From Pandoraea pulmonicola (GTDB lineage Bacteria > Pseudomonadota > Gammaproteobacteria > Burkholderiales > Burkholderiaceae): a stretch of 64,000 nt of DNA. Below the pieces are notes generated by a model. It was not told where the DNA came from, searched no databases, and saw only the letters and a list, made by a program, of their open reading frames with translations. Made by a program: the position numbers and the translations under genes. The stretch covers positions 3,162,001 to 3,226,000 of the forward strand of contig NZ_CP010310.2 of NCBI RefSeq assembly GCF_000815105.2, written 5' to 3'. Shown here one piece after another: positions 6,541 to 57,972 of the stretch (position 1 is the first letter of the stretch; each line of letters opens with the position of its first letter).

Positions 6541-9223
<2,683 letters not shown>

Positions 9224-9342: not shown

Positions 9343-11421
9343 ATGCGGGTAGCATCGCCCCTTCTTTTCATCAACGAGAAGGCGCCTGGCGAGGCATCCG
9401 CACCGAGCGCTGCATCGCTCCGACCCGCCACCGACGACATGCCCCACGGTTTATTTCGTTCCCTGACCTGCCGCGATCGCTCCACGAGTTTCAGCGCCGA
9501 CGCGCCCGTCCTTGCACCGCACTCCGCGCGGCATCGGAATCTCGCACTCGACCTCACCGTGGTACAGCAGAAGATGGCCACCCCGGCCTCCCACGTCAGT
9601 ATGAAAGTCGACATCAATGGCAACACGCGGCGCGCAGCGCCCGGATGTGTCGAATTCGCCCTCGTCGCCCGACATGTCACCAACTCGCGCCCAGGCAGCG
9701 ACGGCGCCCTTGCCAGCAGCCGCGCCGAAAACGGTGACGCCTTTGCCCGAGCGCGGCACATCTACGCAGCGCTGCGCGACGAAATCGCCGCGCCTGCGTT
9801 GCGCAGACGCACGCACACGACGCAGGTTGCGAAGGGGCACGTCCCCTCGCCCCGCGGCGCGCGACGCGCGGCGGCCCAGGAAGACGCCATCATGTCGCTG
9901 CCGTGGTACGAGGCGCTGCAGCCACACCTGCGTGCCGAAGCGCAAGCCCTCGCACAACGCGGACTCGACGTGGGCGAAGTCCGTCGTCGCTTCGACGCGC
10001 TCATGCGACACGAGCGCCCGGGCCTGTCGCTGCGATCGTTGCGCGTGGGCACGGAACGCGATGCGCTGCCGTTCGCCGTCGGCTCCGCCCTGATCGCGCT
10101 CCTCGTCGACAGCGTGGATCCCGAGCGTACGCAGTCTGCGATGTGGCCGGCGGTGGAGGCTACGAGCGTCGTTTTCATCAATTTGCTGGGGATGGCTCGC
10201 TTCAACGCGTGCTATCCGGCGCTGCGCAGGAAGGTGCAGCGAATCACGCCGGCGCAGGGCCAGGAGGCGCTGAGCTGGATGCTCCGTCACCCTGCGCGCG
10301 AGGTCGTCGCCCATGTGCTGGGGTTCGTGTTCTGTTACGGCGTGATGCGAAACGGCATGCGGCTGGGCGTGGAGGCGGGACTGTCCGCCGCGCTGCCGGG
10401 TGTGATGTCGCATCGGTTCGCGAACACGATACATGCCGGGCTGGAAATTCTTCTCGCCCCGATTCCCGGCATGCTGTTGTTGCCGATGATCGAACGTATC
10501 GGCATGCCACCGGAAGACGCGCGCCTGGAGCTCCTTATCCAGGATCGGTTTGCGGATCTGATCACCGGAGCCGGCGTGCAGCCCGGTGTCGCGACGCCGG
10601 GCTGCTGGTCCGTCTTCTGGCAGAACCTGAGGCTTCTTCTGGGCTCGGGAGCGCCGCGCGCGATATGGCTCACGCTGACCTTGGGCTTCTATTTTCTGTC
10701 GTCGTTGCGCGAAGGCGCCTGCACCGCCTCTTTTACCGACGACGATGCATTGCCGTTCGCCGGGAACTCGACCCCTTTCGATGCACCGTCCGTCGACGAC
10801 GGCACGGGCATCGACTGGCACGTGCAGGCACTCCTCGCGGTGATCTACGGCACGATCGCGACGGCCCTCGGCCTACAGGGAGTGTCGTCCCGACACGAGG
10901 ACATCAGCTCGGCACACACGCGGCGGCGCGGGCGGCCGAAGATCAGCACCATCACCATGACTTCGCAAGCGGACTCCGGCCACTCGTCCGCGAGCTCGTT
11001 CTCCGGCATGACCGTTGATCACGGCGATCCGCTCGGCGACGGTGGCGACGCTTCTGGCGGCACATCTGCCGACAGGTCTTTCGGCGACACATCGGGCGAT
11101 ACGTCGGGTGACGATATGGTCTTCCTGTCGATAGGCGAAACATCTGGCGCCTGCACGCAGGCCGGCTGTCGGACAGCGCCCGACGCCTCTGCGCGTTCGT
11201 CGCCCTCGGCGCACGCCACGCGGCCGGCACACTCGGCGCGTCGACACGGGACGGCAGTCGCACCGGCCGACATTCCGCGGCGCCGGGTGGGCGCCGCGGA
11301 CGATCCTGGCAGCCCCAACGATCCGCAAGCGTCGGGAGACCCAGGCAACCCACGTGACTCAAGCGGCCGCACGGTGGTTACCCCCGCCGGCAGCCTGTCC
11401 GATTTGACGACACCTTTGTGA
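9343..11421 (+). CDS. Large hypothetical protein with hydrophobic core and low-complexity tail
   Basis: I do not recognise this 692-residue protein. Residues 1 to about 185 are Ala/Arg/His/Thr-rich and probably disordered. Residues about 185-520 look folded, with several hydrophobic segments (for example around AVGSALIALLV, VLGFVFCYGV, ILLAPIPGMLLLPMI, AIWLTLTLGFYFLSS and ALLAVIYGTIATAL), so it may be a membrane or membrane-inserting protein. Residues about 525-692 are Ser/Gly/Asp/Thr/Pro-rich with short DTSGD repeats. High G+C at third codon positions supports real coding, clearest from about 9895. The start is uncertain: ATG 9343 has a poor ribosome site, and 9439 or 9604 are alternatives. 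No operon partner is evident. A secreted or surface protein is only a guess. Confidence 0.55.
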   Translation: MRVASPLLFINEKAPGEASAPSAASLRPATDDMPHGLFRSLTCRDRSTSFSADAPVLAPHSARHRNLALDLTVVQQKMATPASHVSMKVDINGNTRRAAPGCVEFALVARHVTNSRPGSDGALASSRAENGDAFARARHIYAALRDEIAAPALRRRTHTTQVAKGHVPSPRGARRAAAQEDAIMSLPWYEALQPHLRAEAQALAQRGLDVGEVRRRFDALMRHERPGLSLRSLRVGTERDALPFAVGSALIALLVDSVDPERTQSAMWPAVEATSVVFINLLGMARFNACYPALRRKVQRITPAQGQEALSWMLRHPAREVVAHVLGFVFCYGVMRNGMRLGVEAGLSAALPGVMSHRFANTIHAGLEILLAPIPGMLLLPMIERIGMPPEDARLELLIQDRFADLITGAGVQPGVATPGCWSVFWQNLRLLLGSGAPRAIWLTLTLGFYFLSSLREGACTASFTDDDALPFAGNSTPFDAPSVDDGTGIDWHVQALLAVIYGTIATALGLQGVSSRHEDISSAHTRRRGRPKISTITMTSQADSGHSSASSFSGMTVDHGDPLGDGGDASGGTSADRSFGDTSGDTSGDDMVFLSIGETSGACTQAGCRTAPDASARSSPSAHATRPAHSARRHGTAVAPADIPRRRVGAADDPGSPNDPQASGDPGNPRDSSGRTVVTPAGSLSDLTTPL

Positions 11422-52675: not shown

Positions 52676-55284
52676 CTAGTAGATGTCGCGTCGATAGCGC
52701 CCCTGCGCCGACAGATCGAGCAGCACGTCCGCGCCGATCGCCTCGGCGAGTGCGGCGTCGACCGCGGGCGCCATGCCGGCGAGGCTGCCGCAGACGTAGA
52801 TCGATGCCCCATCGGCCACCCAGGCGGCGATGTCCTGCGCCGACTCGCGCACCTTGTCCTGCACGTAGACGCGTTGCGCCTGGTCACGCGAAAAGACGCG
52901 ATCGAGCCGTGCGATGCCGCCATCGGCCAGCCATTCGCGCAGGGTGGCGTCGTGGAAGCTGTCGTGGGCCGCCTGACGCTCGCCGAAGATCAGCCAGTTG
53001 CGCACGTGCCCCTGTGCGATACGCTCGGCCAGATGCGCGCGCAGCCCGGCCAGCCCGGTACCGTTGCCGATGAGGATCATGCCGCGCGCGTCGTCGGGGC
53101 CGTGGAAACCCGGATTCGGGCGCACGCGCATCGTCACCCCCTCGCCCGACGCCACCCCGTGAGTCAGCCAGCCGGAGCCGAGCCCCAGCGCGCCGTCGGA
53201 ATTGCGGGCCTGGCGAACCAGCAGCATCAACTTGCCCTCGGCGGGCGTCGAGGCGATCGAGTATTCACGTTCGGGCAACGGCGCGAGACGTTCCAGCCAG
53301 TCCTGCAGATCGATGCCGGCGGGCGGCGCGGCAGCGGGCAGCACGCGTTCGCGCAGCGCTTCGCCGAGCGTGGCATCACGCCCGGCCACGTTGACGCGCA
53401 CATCGGACGCCCAGACGCTGCCCGACAGGAACGCGTCGATGCGCGCGGCGGTGTGGCGCGGCAGCACTTCGACCAGATCGCCGGCAACCCATGTGGCGCC
53501 CGGCGGCGGCGTGAACGCCAGGTGATAGACGGGCAAGCCGGCACTGCCCGGATTGAGCTCGGTGCGTTCGACGAGCGGCCACGCCTGGAAGCCCCGCGCG
53601 TCGTCCAGTTTCGACGCCACGAGCGGACGGCCCAGCCATTCGCCCAGACGTTCCTGCCAACGCGCCCAGGCGCCGGGGTCGCCGCGATCGACCTCGATGG
53701 GCTCGAACGCCGCCACACCGCCCTGCGCGCGCAGCCAACCGTCGAGCTTGCGGCCGAAGCCGCAGAAGCGGTCGTAATGACTGTCGCCGAGCGAGAGCAT
53801 GGCGAAACGCAACGTCGGCAGCGCCATGGCCTGATTCATCAGTTGCTGTGCGAAACGACGCGCGCTGTCGGGCGGCTCACCATCGCCGAAAGTGCTCACG
53901 ATGAAGAGCGCCCGCCGTGCGTTGCCGAGTTGCGCCTCGCCGATGCGCGCGAGCGGCTGGATTTGCGCAGGCACGCCCGCGCCCTGCAGCATGCCGGCCG
54001 TCTGCCATGCGAGACCTTCCGCCACGCCGCTCTGACTCGCGTAGCCGATCAGCACCCCGTCGTCCGCCAGCGCGCTCGCGCCGGCGTTCGCCCCCTCTCT
54101 CGCGCCTGCCGGGCGCGAGGCGGCCAATGCGCGTTTCTTCTTGCGGCGGTCGAGATAGAGCATCCAGCCCGTCACGAAAAAGACCGGCATCATCAAGCTC
54201 GAGAGCATCATGATGATGACGCCCGCCTGCCCGAAGAAACTGCCGCGATGCAGTGCATAGATACTGGTCATCAACTGCCCGCCCAGCGTCTTCTGACCGT
54301 AGCGCTCCTCGTTCCGGATTTCGCCGGACGCCGGTACGACGTCCATGCGGCTGAAGGCACGTTCGTGCGGCACGGTGTCGTCGAGCCAGGTCACCTGCAC
54401 CGGGCCGCCAGGCTTTTGCGACGGACGCACATAGGCCTTGGTGTAGTTCGGCACGCGCGCGCTGAAACTATCCCAGACCACGCCCATGTCGTTGGTAGAG
54501 GTCGACGCAAGATCCGGCAACGCGGGTTTCCTGCCTTCGCCACGCGTCCCCTGCCCCCCTTCTTGCCGTCACCGGCCTTCGGCGCCTGCGCCGGACGATT
54601 GCGAACCGGTTGCTCCACGCCCGCGATCGAGAACAGCATGCCGCGCCACCAGTCGTACGACCAGTACAGGCCGGTCGTGGCCGAAAGCAGGTACGGCACC
54701 AGCACCACCGTGCCGACGACCGCGTGCAGATTCCAGAGGAACGGACGGCCGCGCTTCTTGAAGTCGATGTGCAGCCAGGCGCGCCAGTTGCCGATGCGGC
54801 GCGGCCAGCGCAGATACAACCCGGAGAGCGCGAGCAGGAACAGCAACAGCGTGGCCGCCGCCGTGATCTGCTTGCCGATGCCGTCGATCGTCAGGAAACG
54901 GTGGATGTCCATGATGAAGCGAAAGACGACGTCCGCTTTCGAGCGCCCCAGCATCTGCCCCGTGTACGGGTCGACGAAGTAGGTTTCGCCGCGCGGCCCA
55001 TCGCCGGTGGATAGGCGCACCCCGACCGCATCTTCGGGCGAGCGCGAGACCATCATGAGCAGAATGCGCCGGTCGGGCACCGCTTCATGCACCCGTGCGA
55101 CGAGCGCCGGAATGGGCAGCGGCGCCGTATCGCGTACTGGCACCGTCATCACGCCCGGGCTCAGGGCACGGGTCAGTTCGTCGTCGTAGGAAAGCAGCGC
55201 GCCGGTCAGGCCGACCACTGCCAGCACCAGTCCGGCCGTAATGCCGAAGAACCAGTGCAACTGAAACCACAGTCTTTTCATCAT
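52676..55284 (-). pseudogene. PepSY-TM / flavodoxin reductase (PiuB-like iron reductase), frame broken
   Basis: One gene in two frames. The 5' part (55284 down to a stop at 54391) has a PepSY-TM region: a first helix (LHWFFGITAGLVLAVVGLTGALLSYDDEL), HRFLTIDG and two or three further helices (LLFLLALSGLYLRW, LLSATTGLYWSYDWW). The 3' part (to 52676) continues with another helix, a flavodoxin domain (GYASQSGVAEGLAWQTA, STFGDGEPPDSA) and an FAD/NADPH reductase domain (REYSIAS, GNGTGLAGLRAHLAE). The frames meet at the GGGGGGC tract (54553-54559 region); one extra G, or a -1 slip there, joins them into about 875 residues, the size of PiuB-type proteins. Such reductases use NADPH to reduce ferric siderophores. 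A Fur-box-like site lies upstream. Whether it is a true mutation, sequencing error or programmed slip cannot be settled here. Confidence 0.8.
54554..54559. repeat. C6 homopolymer at the reductase frame break
   Basis: Six C on the plus strand (six G on the coding strand, followed by C, giving GGGGGGC in the zero frame as GGG GGC). A 1-base expansion restores the full reductase frame. The heptamer also fits the X-XXY-YYZ form of a -1 ribosomal slippery site, and the -1 frame is exactly the one that continues into the flavodoxin domain. Confidence 0.85.
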
Positions 55285-55391
55285 TTTTGTCGTCCGACGC
55301 ACGTCCGTACGCCGAAGGTGGCGCGTGCGTGGCAGGTATGTGCCGTGCCGCCGTCCCCGATGGAGCCCTCAGCGGCAATATCGCATGTTAT

Positions 55392-55410
55392 TGCAAACGA
55401 TTCTCATATT
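55392..55410. promoter_or_regulatory. Fur-box-like site upstream of the PepSY reductase
   Basis: TGCAAACGATTCTCATATT has the GCAAA-N-GATTCTCAT core typical of Fur boxes in betaproteobacteria and pseudomonads. It is about 110 bp upstream of the reductase start, in an A+T-rich patch within the 440-bp region divergent from otsBA. This supports iron control of the reductase. Confidence 0.6.
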
Positions 55411-55433
55411 CAATATCGACTTTACTTTCGTCG

Positions 55434-55455
55434 CCTTGTAGGCCCCTTGTAGGCC
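55434..55455. repeat. Exact 11-bp tandem duplication
   Basis: CCTTGTAGGCC occurs twice head to tail (55434-55444 and 55445-55455). A perfect dyad, CGGAC-GACT-GTCCG, follows at 55480-55493. All are in the gene-free region between the reductase and otsB. Confidence 0.7.
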
Positions 55456-55531
55456 TCATCCGACAGCAATTTCATAGATCGGACGACTGTCCGCCACTTT
55501 CCGGCCGGTTAGGATGAATTTATCCGCGCGG

Positions 55532-55597
55532 TCTGAATGCATTCTGAATTCGCTATGAACACGATCTGAATGAAGTCTGAACGCGCTCTGACCGGGC
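55532..55597 (+). promoter_or_regulatory. Six-copy, 11-bp-phased TCTGAA array upstream of otsBA
   Basis: TCTGAA occurs at 55532, 55543, 55565 and 55576. TATGAA is at 55554 and TCTGAC at 55587. All six are in the same orientation with an exact 11-bp period, one DNA helical turn. A -10-like TACACT at 55611-55616 follows the last repeat with a 17-bp spacer from CTGACC (55588-55593). This is the geometry of tandem half-sites for OmpR/PhoB-type regulators overlapping an activator-dependent -35 region. It points at otsB, whose ATG is at 55724. No regulator of that family is in the window. Confidence 0.7.
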
Positions 55598-55723
55598 CAT
55601 TACACCCAGTTACACTCATCGAACCGCCGCACGTCTCGTCTACCCCTTGCCCATGTCCGCCTGATGCTCCGGAACGGCATCGGATACGACCGATCGACCT
55701 GCGGCACGAAGCGACGGAGTGCC

Positions 55724-56554
55724 ATGAAGCCCTTAGCGCCAAGCCAGTCCGCCACGTCTGCCGCGTTCGCGACCACGCCGGCCGACACGTGCGACGTCGA
55801 CGTTGCCACGACGGCCTTCTTCTTCGACCTCGACGGCACGCTCGCCCCACTCGCCGAGCGTCCCGGTGCGGTCCACCTGCCGCACGACACGGCCGCGGTA
55901 CTCGCCAGCCTGTTCGAGCGCACCTCCGGCGCCGTGGCGGTCGTCTCTGGGCGCACCATCGACGACATCGACGGTCTGCTCGCCCCGCTCAAGGTGCCTG
56001 CCGCGGGCCTGCACGGCGCCGAGATCCGCCACGGCGACGGCCAATGGCGGCGCGCGGACGGCCATGCCGAAGACACGGCACAGGTCGCGGCGATGGTCGC
56101 GCCGCTGCAGGCGCTGGTCGCCCAACATCCGGGGTTGCTGCTCGAGAACAAGGGCTGCGCCGTCGCCCTGCACTATCGCGGTGCGCCGGAGCTGGCGAGC
56201 ATGGCACGCGACACCATGCGCGCGCTGGCCGATCTGCACGCGGATCGTTTCGCCCTGCAGCCCGGCAAGCTCGTCTTCGAACTGCGCCCCCGCCATGTCA
56301 GCAAGGGCCGCGCCATTACCACGTTATTGAAGGAGCCTCCGTTCGCCGGGCGCACACCGCTTTTCGCCGGTGACGACCTCACGGACGAGGCAGGTTTTGC
56401 CGACGTGAACGCCCTTGGCGGCGTCACGATCAAGATCGGCGAGGGGCAGACCTGTGCCCACCATCGTTTGCCGTCGCCCGAGGCGCTCACCGCCTGGCTG
56501 CTGACGTTGCGGCACGGCCCGCCTCGCCACACCTCACAGGAGAAAGGAGTATGA
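55724..56554 (+). CDS. otsB: Trehalose-6-phosphate phosphatase
   Basis: Dephosphorylates trehalose 6-phosphate to trehalose. 276 residues. HAD-superfamily motif I FFFDLDGTLAPL (nucleophile Asp near residue 34), motif II VVSGRTIDDID and motif IV GDDLTDEAGF are present, as is the trehalose-phosphatase block GLHGAEIRHGDGQW. GGAG precedes the ATG. The frame upstream of 55724 is not conserved. The stop overlaps the otsA start as ATGA, so translation is coupled in otsBA. Trehalose is an osmotic and desiccation protectant, and the phased array upstream suggests response-regulator control. Confidence 0.94.
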   Translation: MKPLAPSQSATSAAFATTPADTCDVDVATTAFFFDLDGTLAPLAERPGAVHLPHDTAAVLASLFERTSGAVAVVSGRTIDDIDGLLAPLKVPAAGLHGAEIRHGDGQWRRADGHAEDTAQVAAMVAPLQALVAQHPGLLLENKGCAVALHYRGAPELASMARDTMRALADLHADRFALQPGKLVFELRPRHVSKGRAITTLLKEPPFAGRTPLFAGDDLTDEAGFADVNALGGVTIKIGEGQTCAHHRLPSPEALTAWLLTLRHGPPRHTSQEKGV

Positions 56555-57972
56555 GCCGCTTAGTCATCGTGTCGAACCGGGTAGCCCCGATCACCGAGGG
56601 CAAACCTACCGCCGGCGGACTGGCCATCGGGGTGTTCGATGCGCTCAAGGACACCGGGGGCATGTGGTTCGGCTGGAACGGCGAGATCGACGCGGAGCCT
56701 GCCACCGCTCCCGAGATCGCACACCGCAACAACGTCACCTTCGCCACGGTGCCGCTCACGCGACGCGACTACAACACCTACTATCGCGGCTTCTCCAATG
56801 CGACCCTGTGGCCCACGTTCCACTACCGGGACGACCTGACGCGATTCGAGCGCGACGACTACAACGGTTATCGTCACGTCAACGCCCGCTTCGCCGCGCT
56901 GCTCGCGCCGCTGCTCGAGCGCGACGACCTCATCTGGGTGCACGATTACCACCTGCTGCCTTTCGCGCAGGCGTGCCGCCAGATCGGCGTGAAGCAGCGC
57001 ATCGGCTTCTTCCTGCACATTCCGTTCCCGTCGCCGCAGGTGCTGATGACCGTGCCGCCCCACGAGGCGCTCGTGCGCGCGATGTGCGAGTACGATCTCG
57101 TCGGCTTCCAGACGGAGATCGACCGCACCGCTTTTACCGATTACCTCGTGCGCTACGCCGGGGCCACGAAGAACGACGACGGCACCCTCACCGCTTACGG
57201 ACGCAGCCTGCGCACCGGTGTGTATCCGATCGGCGTGTACCCCGACGAGATCCAGCAGCAGGCGACCGCGCGCGCGACCGTCAAGCACATCCTCGATCTG
57301 AAGCAGGGCCTGCAGGAACGCAAGCTCATCATGAGCGTCGACCGTCTCGACTATTCAAAGGGGATGCTCGAACGGTTCCGCGCCTTCGAGCGCATGCTCG
57401 AGTTATGGCCGAACCAGCAGGGCACGGTCAGCTTCGTGCAGATCGCGCCGCCGAGCCGATCTGACGTAGCCGGTTACGGCGAAATCCGCCGTCAGCTCGA
57501 AACGGAGGCGGGCCACATCAATGGCCGCTTCTCCGACATGGCGTGGACGCCGCTGCGCTATGTGAACAAGCGCTACGAGCACGAGGTGCTGATGTCCTTC
57601 TTCCGGGCGTCGCAGGTCGGGTACGTCACACCACTGCGCGACGGCATGAACCTGGTGGCCAAGGAATACGTCGCCTCGCAGGATCCTGCCGATCCAGGCG
57701 TGCTCGTCCTGTCGTGTTTCGCCGGAGCGGCGCAGGAACTCGACGGCGCGCTGATCGTGAACCCGTACGACATCGACGGCATGGCCGAAGCGCTGCGCAC
57801 GGCGCTCAACATGTCGCTCTCCGAGCGGCAGTCCCGCTACGAGAGCATGATGGCGAAGCTTCGCGAGCATAATCTGTCCACATGGCGCGACCGCTTCATC
57901 GCCGACCTTCGTCAGCCGACGGTCGCCGCCTGCCCAGCCTTGTTGCGCTGCGCCCATCCGGCCGCGGCCTGA
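56551..57972 (+). CDS. otsA: Trehalose-6-phosphate synthase
   Basis: A GT20 glycosyltransferase that joins UDP-glucose and glucose 6-phosphate. 473 residues, like E. coli OtsA (474). Visible are the N-terminal VSNRVAP, GWNGEI, the acceptor-site [19 protein letters not shown], the donor-site [14 protein letters not shown] and C-terminal [19 protein letters not shown] within the end of otsB provides the ribosome site. Together with otsB it completes the pathway to trehalose. The following 227 bp up to the crotonase gene hold no gene. Confidence 0.96.

Follow-up and report, generated by a model that had tools for sequence, protein, structure and literature searches.

A lineage-specific row of six phased TCTGAA repeats upstream of otsBA in Pandoraea pulmonicola, possibly half-sites for an OmpR/PhoB-type regulator

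The intergenic region upstream of the trehalose genes otsBA of Pandoraea pulmonicola contains six direct repeats of the hexamer TCTGAA, each one helical turn after the other. We regard them as a candidate for a lineage-specific row of direct-repeat half-sites in which the hexamer is constrained, perhaps serving a regulator of the OmpR/PhoB type, and assign this reading a probability of roughly 0.4. A selected half-site array is our best reading, narrowly ahead of a decaying minisatellite. Overall, the sequence looks like a young, putative protein-binding array that has grown by small duplications.

Positions refer to the window, i.e. the whole stretch of 64,000 nucleotides that was analysed. 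Read directly, the units starting at 55532, 55543, 55554, 55565, 55576 and 55587 are TCTGAA, TCTGAA, TATGAA, TCTGAA, TCTGAA and TCTGAC. All six lie on the plus strand at a step of exactly 11 bp, and 34 of the 36 letters agree with a perfect TCTGAA repeat. Tandem Repeats Finder (TRF) delimited the array to 55527-55591 with a period of 11, 5.9 copies and 62% matches; direct reading and TRF together bear out the first-pass annotation in its description of six TCTGAA hexamers or one-base variants in the same orientation at exact 11-bp steps. By a rough calculation that admits any hexamer, periods of 8-14 and at most two mismatches in 36, random DNA with 63% GC would contain about 4e-9 such arrays per 5.87 Mb. 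The six-repeat array is far beyond chance, which is no credible source for it. In pattern searches of the organism's own 5.87-Mb genome, a single contig of 5,867,621 bases, no other TCTGAA array of comparable quality turned up. The literature covered, mainly titles and abstract openings, holds no description of the otsBA array, and nowhere are otsBA, promoter and direct repeats combined in it. The identity of the gene pair downstream as otsB-otsA, proposed earlier from the reading frames, was corroborated by Pfam (Table 1).

Table 1 Features of the otsBA upstream region and operon in the window
Feature	Position	Strand	Basis
Exact 11-bp tandem duplication CCTTGTAGGCC x2, intergenic	55434..55455	+	TRF, alignment
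Candidate ancestral otsBA core-promoter element TTAGGAT	55509..55515	+	Conservation among alignable relatives
GCGCGG, left arm of the inverted repeat of the relatives, whose arms the array separates here	55526..55531	+	Alignment
Six direct repeats, consensus TCTGAA, 11-bp steps, last unit TCTGAC	55532..55592	+	Direct reading, TRF, chance estimate
CGCGC, probably left over from the right arm, equal to the spacer after unit 5	55582..55586	+	Inference from alignment
Second direct repeat TTACACCCAG/TTACACTCAT, 10-bp step, in the lineage-specific insert, holds TACACT	55600..55619	+	Reading, alignment
otsB, trehalose-6-phosphate phosphatase	55724..56554	+	Pfam PF02358, Trehalose_PPase, 7.7e-33
otsA, trehalose-6-phosphate synthase, overlaps the end of otsB	56551..57972	+	Pfam PF00982, Glyco_transf_20, 1.3e-124

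A match to OtsB was obtained in 30 of 32 Pandoraea genomes, that of P. pulmonicola included, and in neither G018 nor G025; the closest homolog, from P. nosoerga LMG 31109 (G017), shares 88% identity. Upstream of otsB the array is absent from all 29 other OtsB-positive genomes, P. pulmonicola being represented by one genome. Within the 600 bp upstream of the OtsB match, the best six-unit score reaches 34/36 in P. pulmonicola and at most 21/36 in the 29 others, there at other positions. The array is likewise missing base by base from each of the 26 relatives that were aligned, a set from which the most distant genomes (G028, G030 and G023) were left out. The first-pass annotation had suggested a cooperative regulator of trehalose synthesis, possibly one responding to osmotic or envelope stress, and had named absence of the array from close relatives as an observation that would refute it; since this is what the relatives display, conserved control of otsBA through the array is given up. 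A genus-wide otsBA box is thereby refuted for the Pandoraea genomes compared (0/29 upstream scans, 0/26 alignments), and repeats in exact helical phase before a gene are no sure sign of conserved regulation.

The relatives share a different element at the site of the array, namely an inverted repeat next to TTAGGAT. Its commonest form is GCGCGGATGTCCGCGC, present in 15 of the 26 alignable relatives; GCGCGGATATCCGCGC and GCGCGGAAGTTCGCGC occur in four genomes each, GCGCGGATGACCGCGC and GCGCAGATGTCCGCGT in one each, and the inverted repeat of P. nosoerga is the 17-bp sequence GCGCGGCCTGACCGCGC. In its position beside TTAGGAT the inverted repeat is probably a regulatory element of otsBA across the genus. 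Its use as a genome-wide operator was rejected: an exact GCGCGGATNTCCGCGC occurs at one place, near otsB by position, in five of eight genomes and is absent from three, and with one mismatch allowed the eight genomes yielded 2 to 11 rows each versus 0 to 19 for the control, which does not show a regulon.

In comparison with P. nosoerga, P. pulmonicola has 65 extra bp in one alignment stretch, which reads as 5x11 + 10. At the spot of the array P. nosoerga holds the one-unit form CCTGACCGCGC, the C of which is kept in the last array unit TCTGAC, and in P. pulmonicola the left arm GCGCGG directly adjoins unit 1. The last, 10-bp step makes the direct repeat TTACACCCAG/TTACACTCAT, and the TACACT therein therefore belongs to the insert. 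About 80 bp upstream of the array lies the exact duplication of CCTTGTAGGCC, of which P. nosoerga has a single copy. Judged from these alignments, the otsB intergenic region of P. pulmonicola appears to have undergone duplications of 10 and 11 bp repeatedly. A mobile or foreign origin of the array was rejected, the sole strong match in 32 Pandoraea genomes being the locus itself (E 2e-46) and all others having E values of at least 0.14; phage and plasmid records contained no match to the array region up to E=1.

The hexamers and the spacers of the array differ strongly in conservation. Mean pairwise identity between units is 89% for the hexamers and 37% for the six spacers (0.36 for the five between hexamers). 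The half-site is thus kept and the spacer free, as in sites of the OmpR/PhoB type, and the whole unit with its spacer is not repeated in the manner of a minisatellite. Random spacers of 50-65% GC would be 25-27% identical, and the observed 37% has a P of 0.02-0.06 under this expectation; the spacers are therefore nearly, perhaps not wholly, unrelated. With 14 mismatches spread evenly over the 66 cells, a circular six-column window holding at most two of them arises at P=0.007. In otsB, 42 of 165 fourfold sites differ between P. pulmonicola and P. nosoerga (JC 0.31), and neutral drift of six copies since that split leaves spacers with an average identity of 74%; a spacer identity of 37% or less was reached in a fraction of 0.00015 of 20,000 neutral runs at this age. 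At twice the assumed age it was reached in 3% of the runs (P 0.03), and in 5% (P 0.05) when the origin of the array was dated to the separation from the other species. At both of these ages the spacer divergence by itself ceases to be remarkable. The observed spacers and hexamers together were produced by none of the neutral runs in five age settings (20,000 each), a joint simulation that treated the hexamer columns as fixed, these having been picked after inspection of the data.

Twenty other CTGAA-type 11-bp arrays, hand-picked from 105 rows and hence not random, served as controls. Spacer identity ranged from 0.53 to 1.0 in the nine arrays with four or more units, compared with 0.36 here; among the eleven arrays with three units, five had values of 0.40 or less, one of which (0.20) lies below the 0.36 of the otsBA array. 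The hexamer values of the controls are biased upward because the search that yielded them used this very hexamer pattern, and their spacer values are biased solely through the choice of regions.

The main rival explanation is a neutral, ageing minisatellite in a slippage-prone intergenic region, whose 11-bp slippage copies are decaying, with the better-kept hexamer partly a matter of luck and no dedicated binding protein involved; it is a genuine possibility, against which we would still bet. The short-period minisatellites of Pandoraea resemble the otsBA array in their 11-bp period and their lineage-specific occurrence, and the array itself represents a lineage-specific gain of copies at one site. 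Short tandem repeats with many different sequences abound in the sampled part of P. nosoerga: TRF, run with periods up to 30, returned 295 rows in 400 kb of that species (one contig) and 145 in 400 kb of the P. pulmonicola genome (20 samples of 20 kb), and the same intergenic region carries the exact 11-bp duplication and the 10-bp one listed in Table 1. The single unit of P. nosoerga and the C retained by TCTGAC are in line with such an origin, as are the 15 of 20 control arrays with a spacer identity of at least 0.53, the outcome expected of whole-unit duplication. What tells against it is the coexistence of nearly random spacers with hexamers that are 89% identical, a pattern that no neutral run gave in both its parts, and the better retention of spacers in the nine controls with four or more units: these measured minisatellites keep their spacers, whereas the otsBA array keeps mainly its hexamer.

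As a further alternative, AA/TG steps in helical phase may bend the DNA, and the promoter may be tuned by this curvature or by a nucleoid protein with a preference for bent DNA, an explanation we hold to be improbable. In a wedge-parameter model the 66-bp array is predicted to bend by 40 degrees, which places it in the top 2.3% of the 66-mers of the window, whose average is 17, and when the hexamers are kept and the spacer letters shuffled most of the bend is retained (mean 33 degrees). However, when all letters of the array are shuffled, about 10% of the resulting sequences bend as strongly, long A-tracts are absent from the array, and a phased AA suffices for bending without the need for a whole hexamer. 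A function at the RNA level, in which the repeated UCUGAA of the otsBA leader binds an RNA-binding protein or forms a structure, appears very improbable. A transcript starting after the conserved TTAGGAT would include the array, but the segment 55520-55640 folds no better than its shuffles (z 0.02), a comparison of 55300-55800 with Rfam gave nothing up to E=1, and the exact helical phase is without obvious meaning in RNA. Finally, a conserved osmotic-stress box of otsBA across Pandoraea is suggested by the geometry alone, and its absence upstream of otsB in the 29 other genomes leaves it with practically no probability.

With respect to the preferred reading as a row of regulator half-sites, the likeness to OmpR/PhoB-type boxes noted in the first-pass annotation holds for the direct repeats spaced by about 11 bp, one turn of the helix, and for the better conservation of the hexamer relative to the spacers; it is accompanied by no clear regulon, and the array is absent upstream of otsB in the relatives compared. 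The PhoB box consists of CTGTCAT-N4 repeated at 11 bp. This consensus shares with the array the spacing and the CTG at the start of the half-site; by eye 3 of 7 letters correspond and the rest differs. The repeat sequence of ArcA differs from TCTGAA. In architecture, the sites of E. coli ArcA, a member of the OmpR/PhoB family, are similar to the otsBA array in comprising several direct repeats about 11 bp apart from centre to centre; of the 158 regions bound by ArcA, 92 contain between three and five repeats, most of them at an 11-bp distance (PMC3798270). The ArcA repeats are described as degenerate and number two to five, whereas the otsBA array has six nearly perfect copies and no clear regulon. 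On the minus strand the array reads TTCAG-N6-TTCAG, which has the spacing and four of five letters per half-site in common with the cre/blr-tag of CreB/BlrA, given as TTCAC-N6-TTCAC (PMC3660660). That tag has two half-sites with C as the last letter, in contrast to six with G in the array, and the motif TTCAC-N6-TTCAC itself does not occur in the array. CreD (PF06123), the usual partner of CreB, had no match in 32/32 Pandoraea genomes, the E. coli control being positive; the CreB reading of the array, checked through CreD as its single marker, has lost support.

A search for the array elsewhere in the genome disclosed no clear regulon when pair, triple and TNTGAA patterns were set against controls. 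Pairs of the form TCTGAA-N5-TCTGAA with at most one mismatch gave 14 rows in the P. pulmonicola genome, five within the array and nine at eight other sites, some of which fall inside open frames; the control gave four. Triples of TCTGAA with up to three mismatches were found four times in the array and once elsewhere (reversed control: one), and triples of TNTGAA with up to two mismatches four times in the array and four times elsewhere (control: one). Similar arrays in this genome are near background apart from two places, 2853817 (one mismatch) and 2857220 (two mismatches), each with a triple of TNTGAA-like half-sites at 11 bp. Each place precedes one of a pair of neighbouring, related low-GC3 open reading frames (935 and 903 aa) that have no Pfam or NCBIfam match. 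The regions upstream of these frames are alike beyond the sites, and the shared sites are therefore no proof of a shared regulator. On the local extract L182 the two half-site regions span 7817-7880 and 11220-11247, respectively, and by eye the region at 2853817 contains a second set of half-sites with one 10-bp step. In G014, an open frame that is related but shorter is preceded by a site similar to that at 2857220.

Further 11-bp patterns were seen in the genus. The sequence TTTGAG-N5-TCTGAA-N5-TGTGAG or a close variant occupies one intergenic place, orthologous by its neighbours, in G003, G010, G014, G021 and G024, and is followed in these five Pandoraea genomes by a GC-rich sequence that appears hairpin-like by eye. 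Another diversified 11-bp array is visible in G014, where an intergenic region around position 6521 of L186 contains, by eye, about nine units of 11 bp that are degenerate and share a TYTGMA-like core. A genus-wide family of CTGAA arrays was considered and rejected. The CTGAA triple at 11 bp had 105 matches versus 45 for the reversed control, yet the frequencies of the hexamers are unequal, with 47 occurrences of the reversed hexamer and 108 of the hexamer on both strands of a 400-kb sample of the P. pulmonicola genome. Among the matches listed, the triple pattern occurred at a 10-bp step in at least 25 of 32 genomes, at 11 bp in at least 26 of 32 and at 12 bp in 32 of 32. Exact CTGAA triples at 11 bp numbered zero in 400 kb of P. 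nosoerga and zero in 400 kb plus the window of P. pulmonicola. Because the reversed control is rarer in itself, the 10- and 12-bp patterns are widespread and the CTGAA core is not favoured in the stretches sampled, no special CTGAA family is claimed. A four-unit pattern had a match in at least 82 of 200 genomes of the bacterial family.

The first-pass annotation had also assigned the last hexamer TCTGAC and TACACT as the -35 and -10 elements of an otsBA promoter. TACACT is located at 55611-55616, 18 bp past the last hexamer, and according to the alignment with P. nosoerga this proposed -10 element sits within the lineage-specific insert. A sigma-70 scan of 55300-55760 returned no sites and TCTGAC matches TTGACA at one of six positions (by eye), so that this promoter could not be confirmed. 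We take TTACACT to resemble the -10 elements used by sigma-S, and otsBA of E. coli is under sigma-S control. Upstream of the inverted repeat, 21 of the 26 alignable relatives carry TTAGGAT; the others have TAGGAT (two genomes) or TTACGAT (three). Since TTAGGAT and the sequence preceding it are conserved, this element would be a better candidate than TACACT for the ancestral core promoter of otsBA, with no -35 hexamer evident. Should transcription start after TTAGGAT, the array would lie in the 5' leader, where binding would repress more easily than activate; should the new TACACT be in use, the activator arrangement proposed earlier would apply.

The origin of the array can be pictured as follows. 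After the split from P. nosoerga, short tandem duplications amounting to 65 bp may have been added inside the inverted repeat of the relatives; the difference itself comes from the comparison, while its direction as a gain and its mechanism are our reconstruction. TCTGAA would then have been kept or selected once per helical turn with the spacers left free, a presumed constraint behind the pattern described above. The array could offer consecutive half-sites to a dimeric protein that binds direct repeats, for which a response regulator of the OmpR/PhoB type would be the most economical candidate, and this protein may coat the DNA cooperatively and thereby change otsBA expression in P. pulmonicola. 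A more far-reaching joint version is unlikely, according to which the array is newborn: within roughly the divergence of two sister species, slippage of one CTGA-containing unit inside the inverted repeat gave rise to six phased half-sites, selection fixed the hexamer and released the spacers, and trehalose synthesis gained an additional, species-specific regulator together with a new -10 element. If the array does bind a regulator, P. nosoerga with one unit and P. pulmonicola with six would constitute a before/after pair at a defined operon, and it could be tested directly there how a bacterial promoter with multiple sites originates by tandem duplication.

Upstream of the array, on the opposite strand, Pfam identified a PepSY/flavodoxin reductase region. 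The corresponding divergent gene (52676-55302, minus strand) is present in two overlapping frames of 303 and 614 aa, and its counterpart in P. nosoerga is a single open frame of at least 870 aa; the split in P. pulmonicola represents a frame break or a sequencing error. Before this reductase gene, at about 55390-55415, lies ATTGCAAACGATTCTCATATTCAAT, which is mostly kept in the relatives compared and presumably resembles a Fur box.
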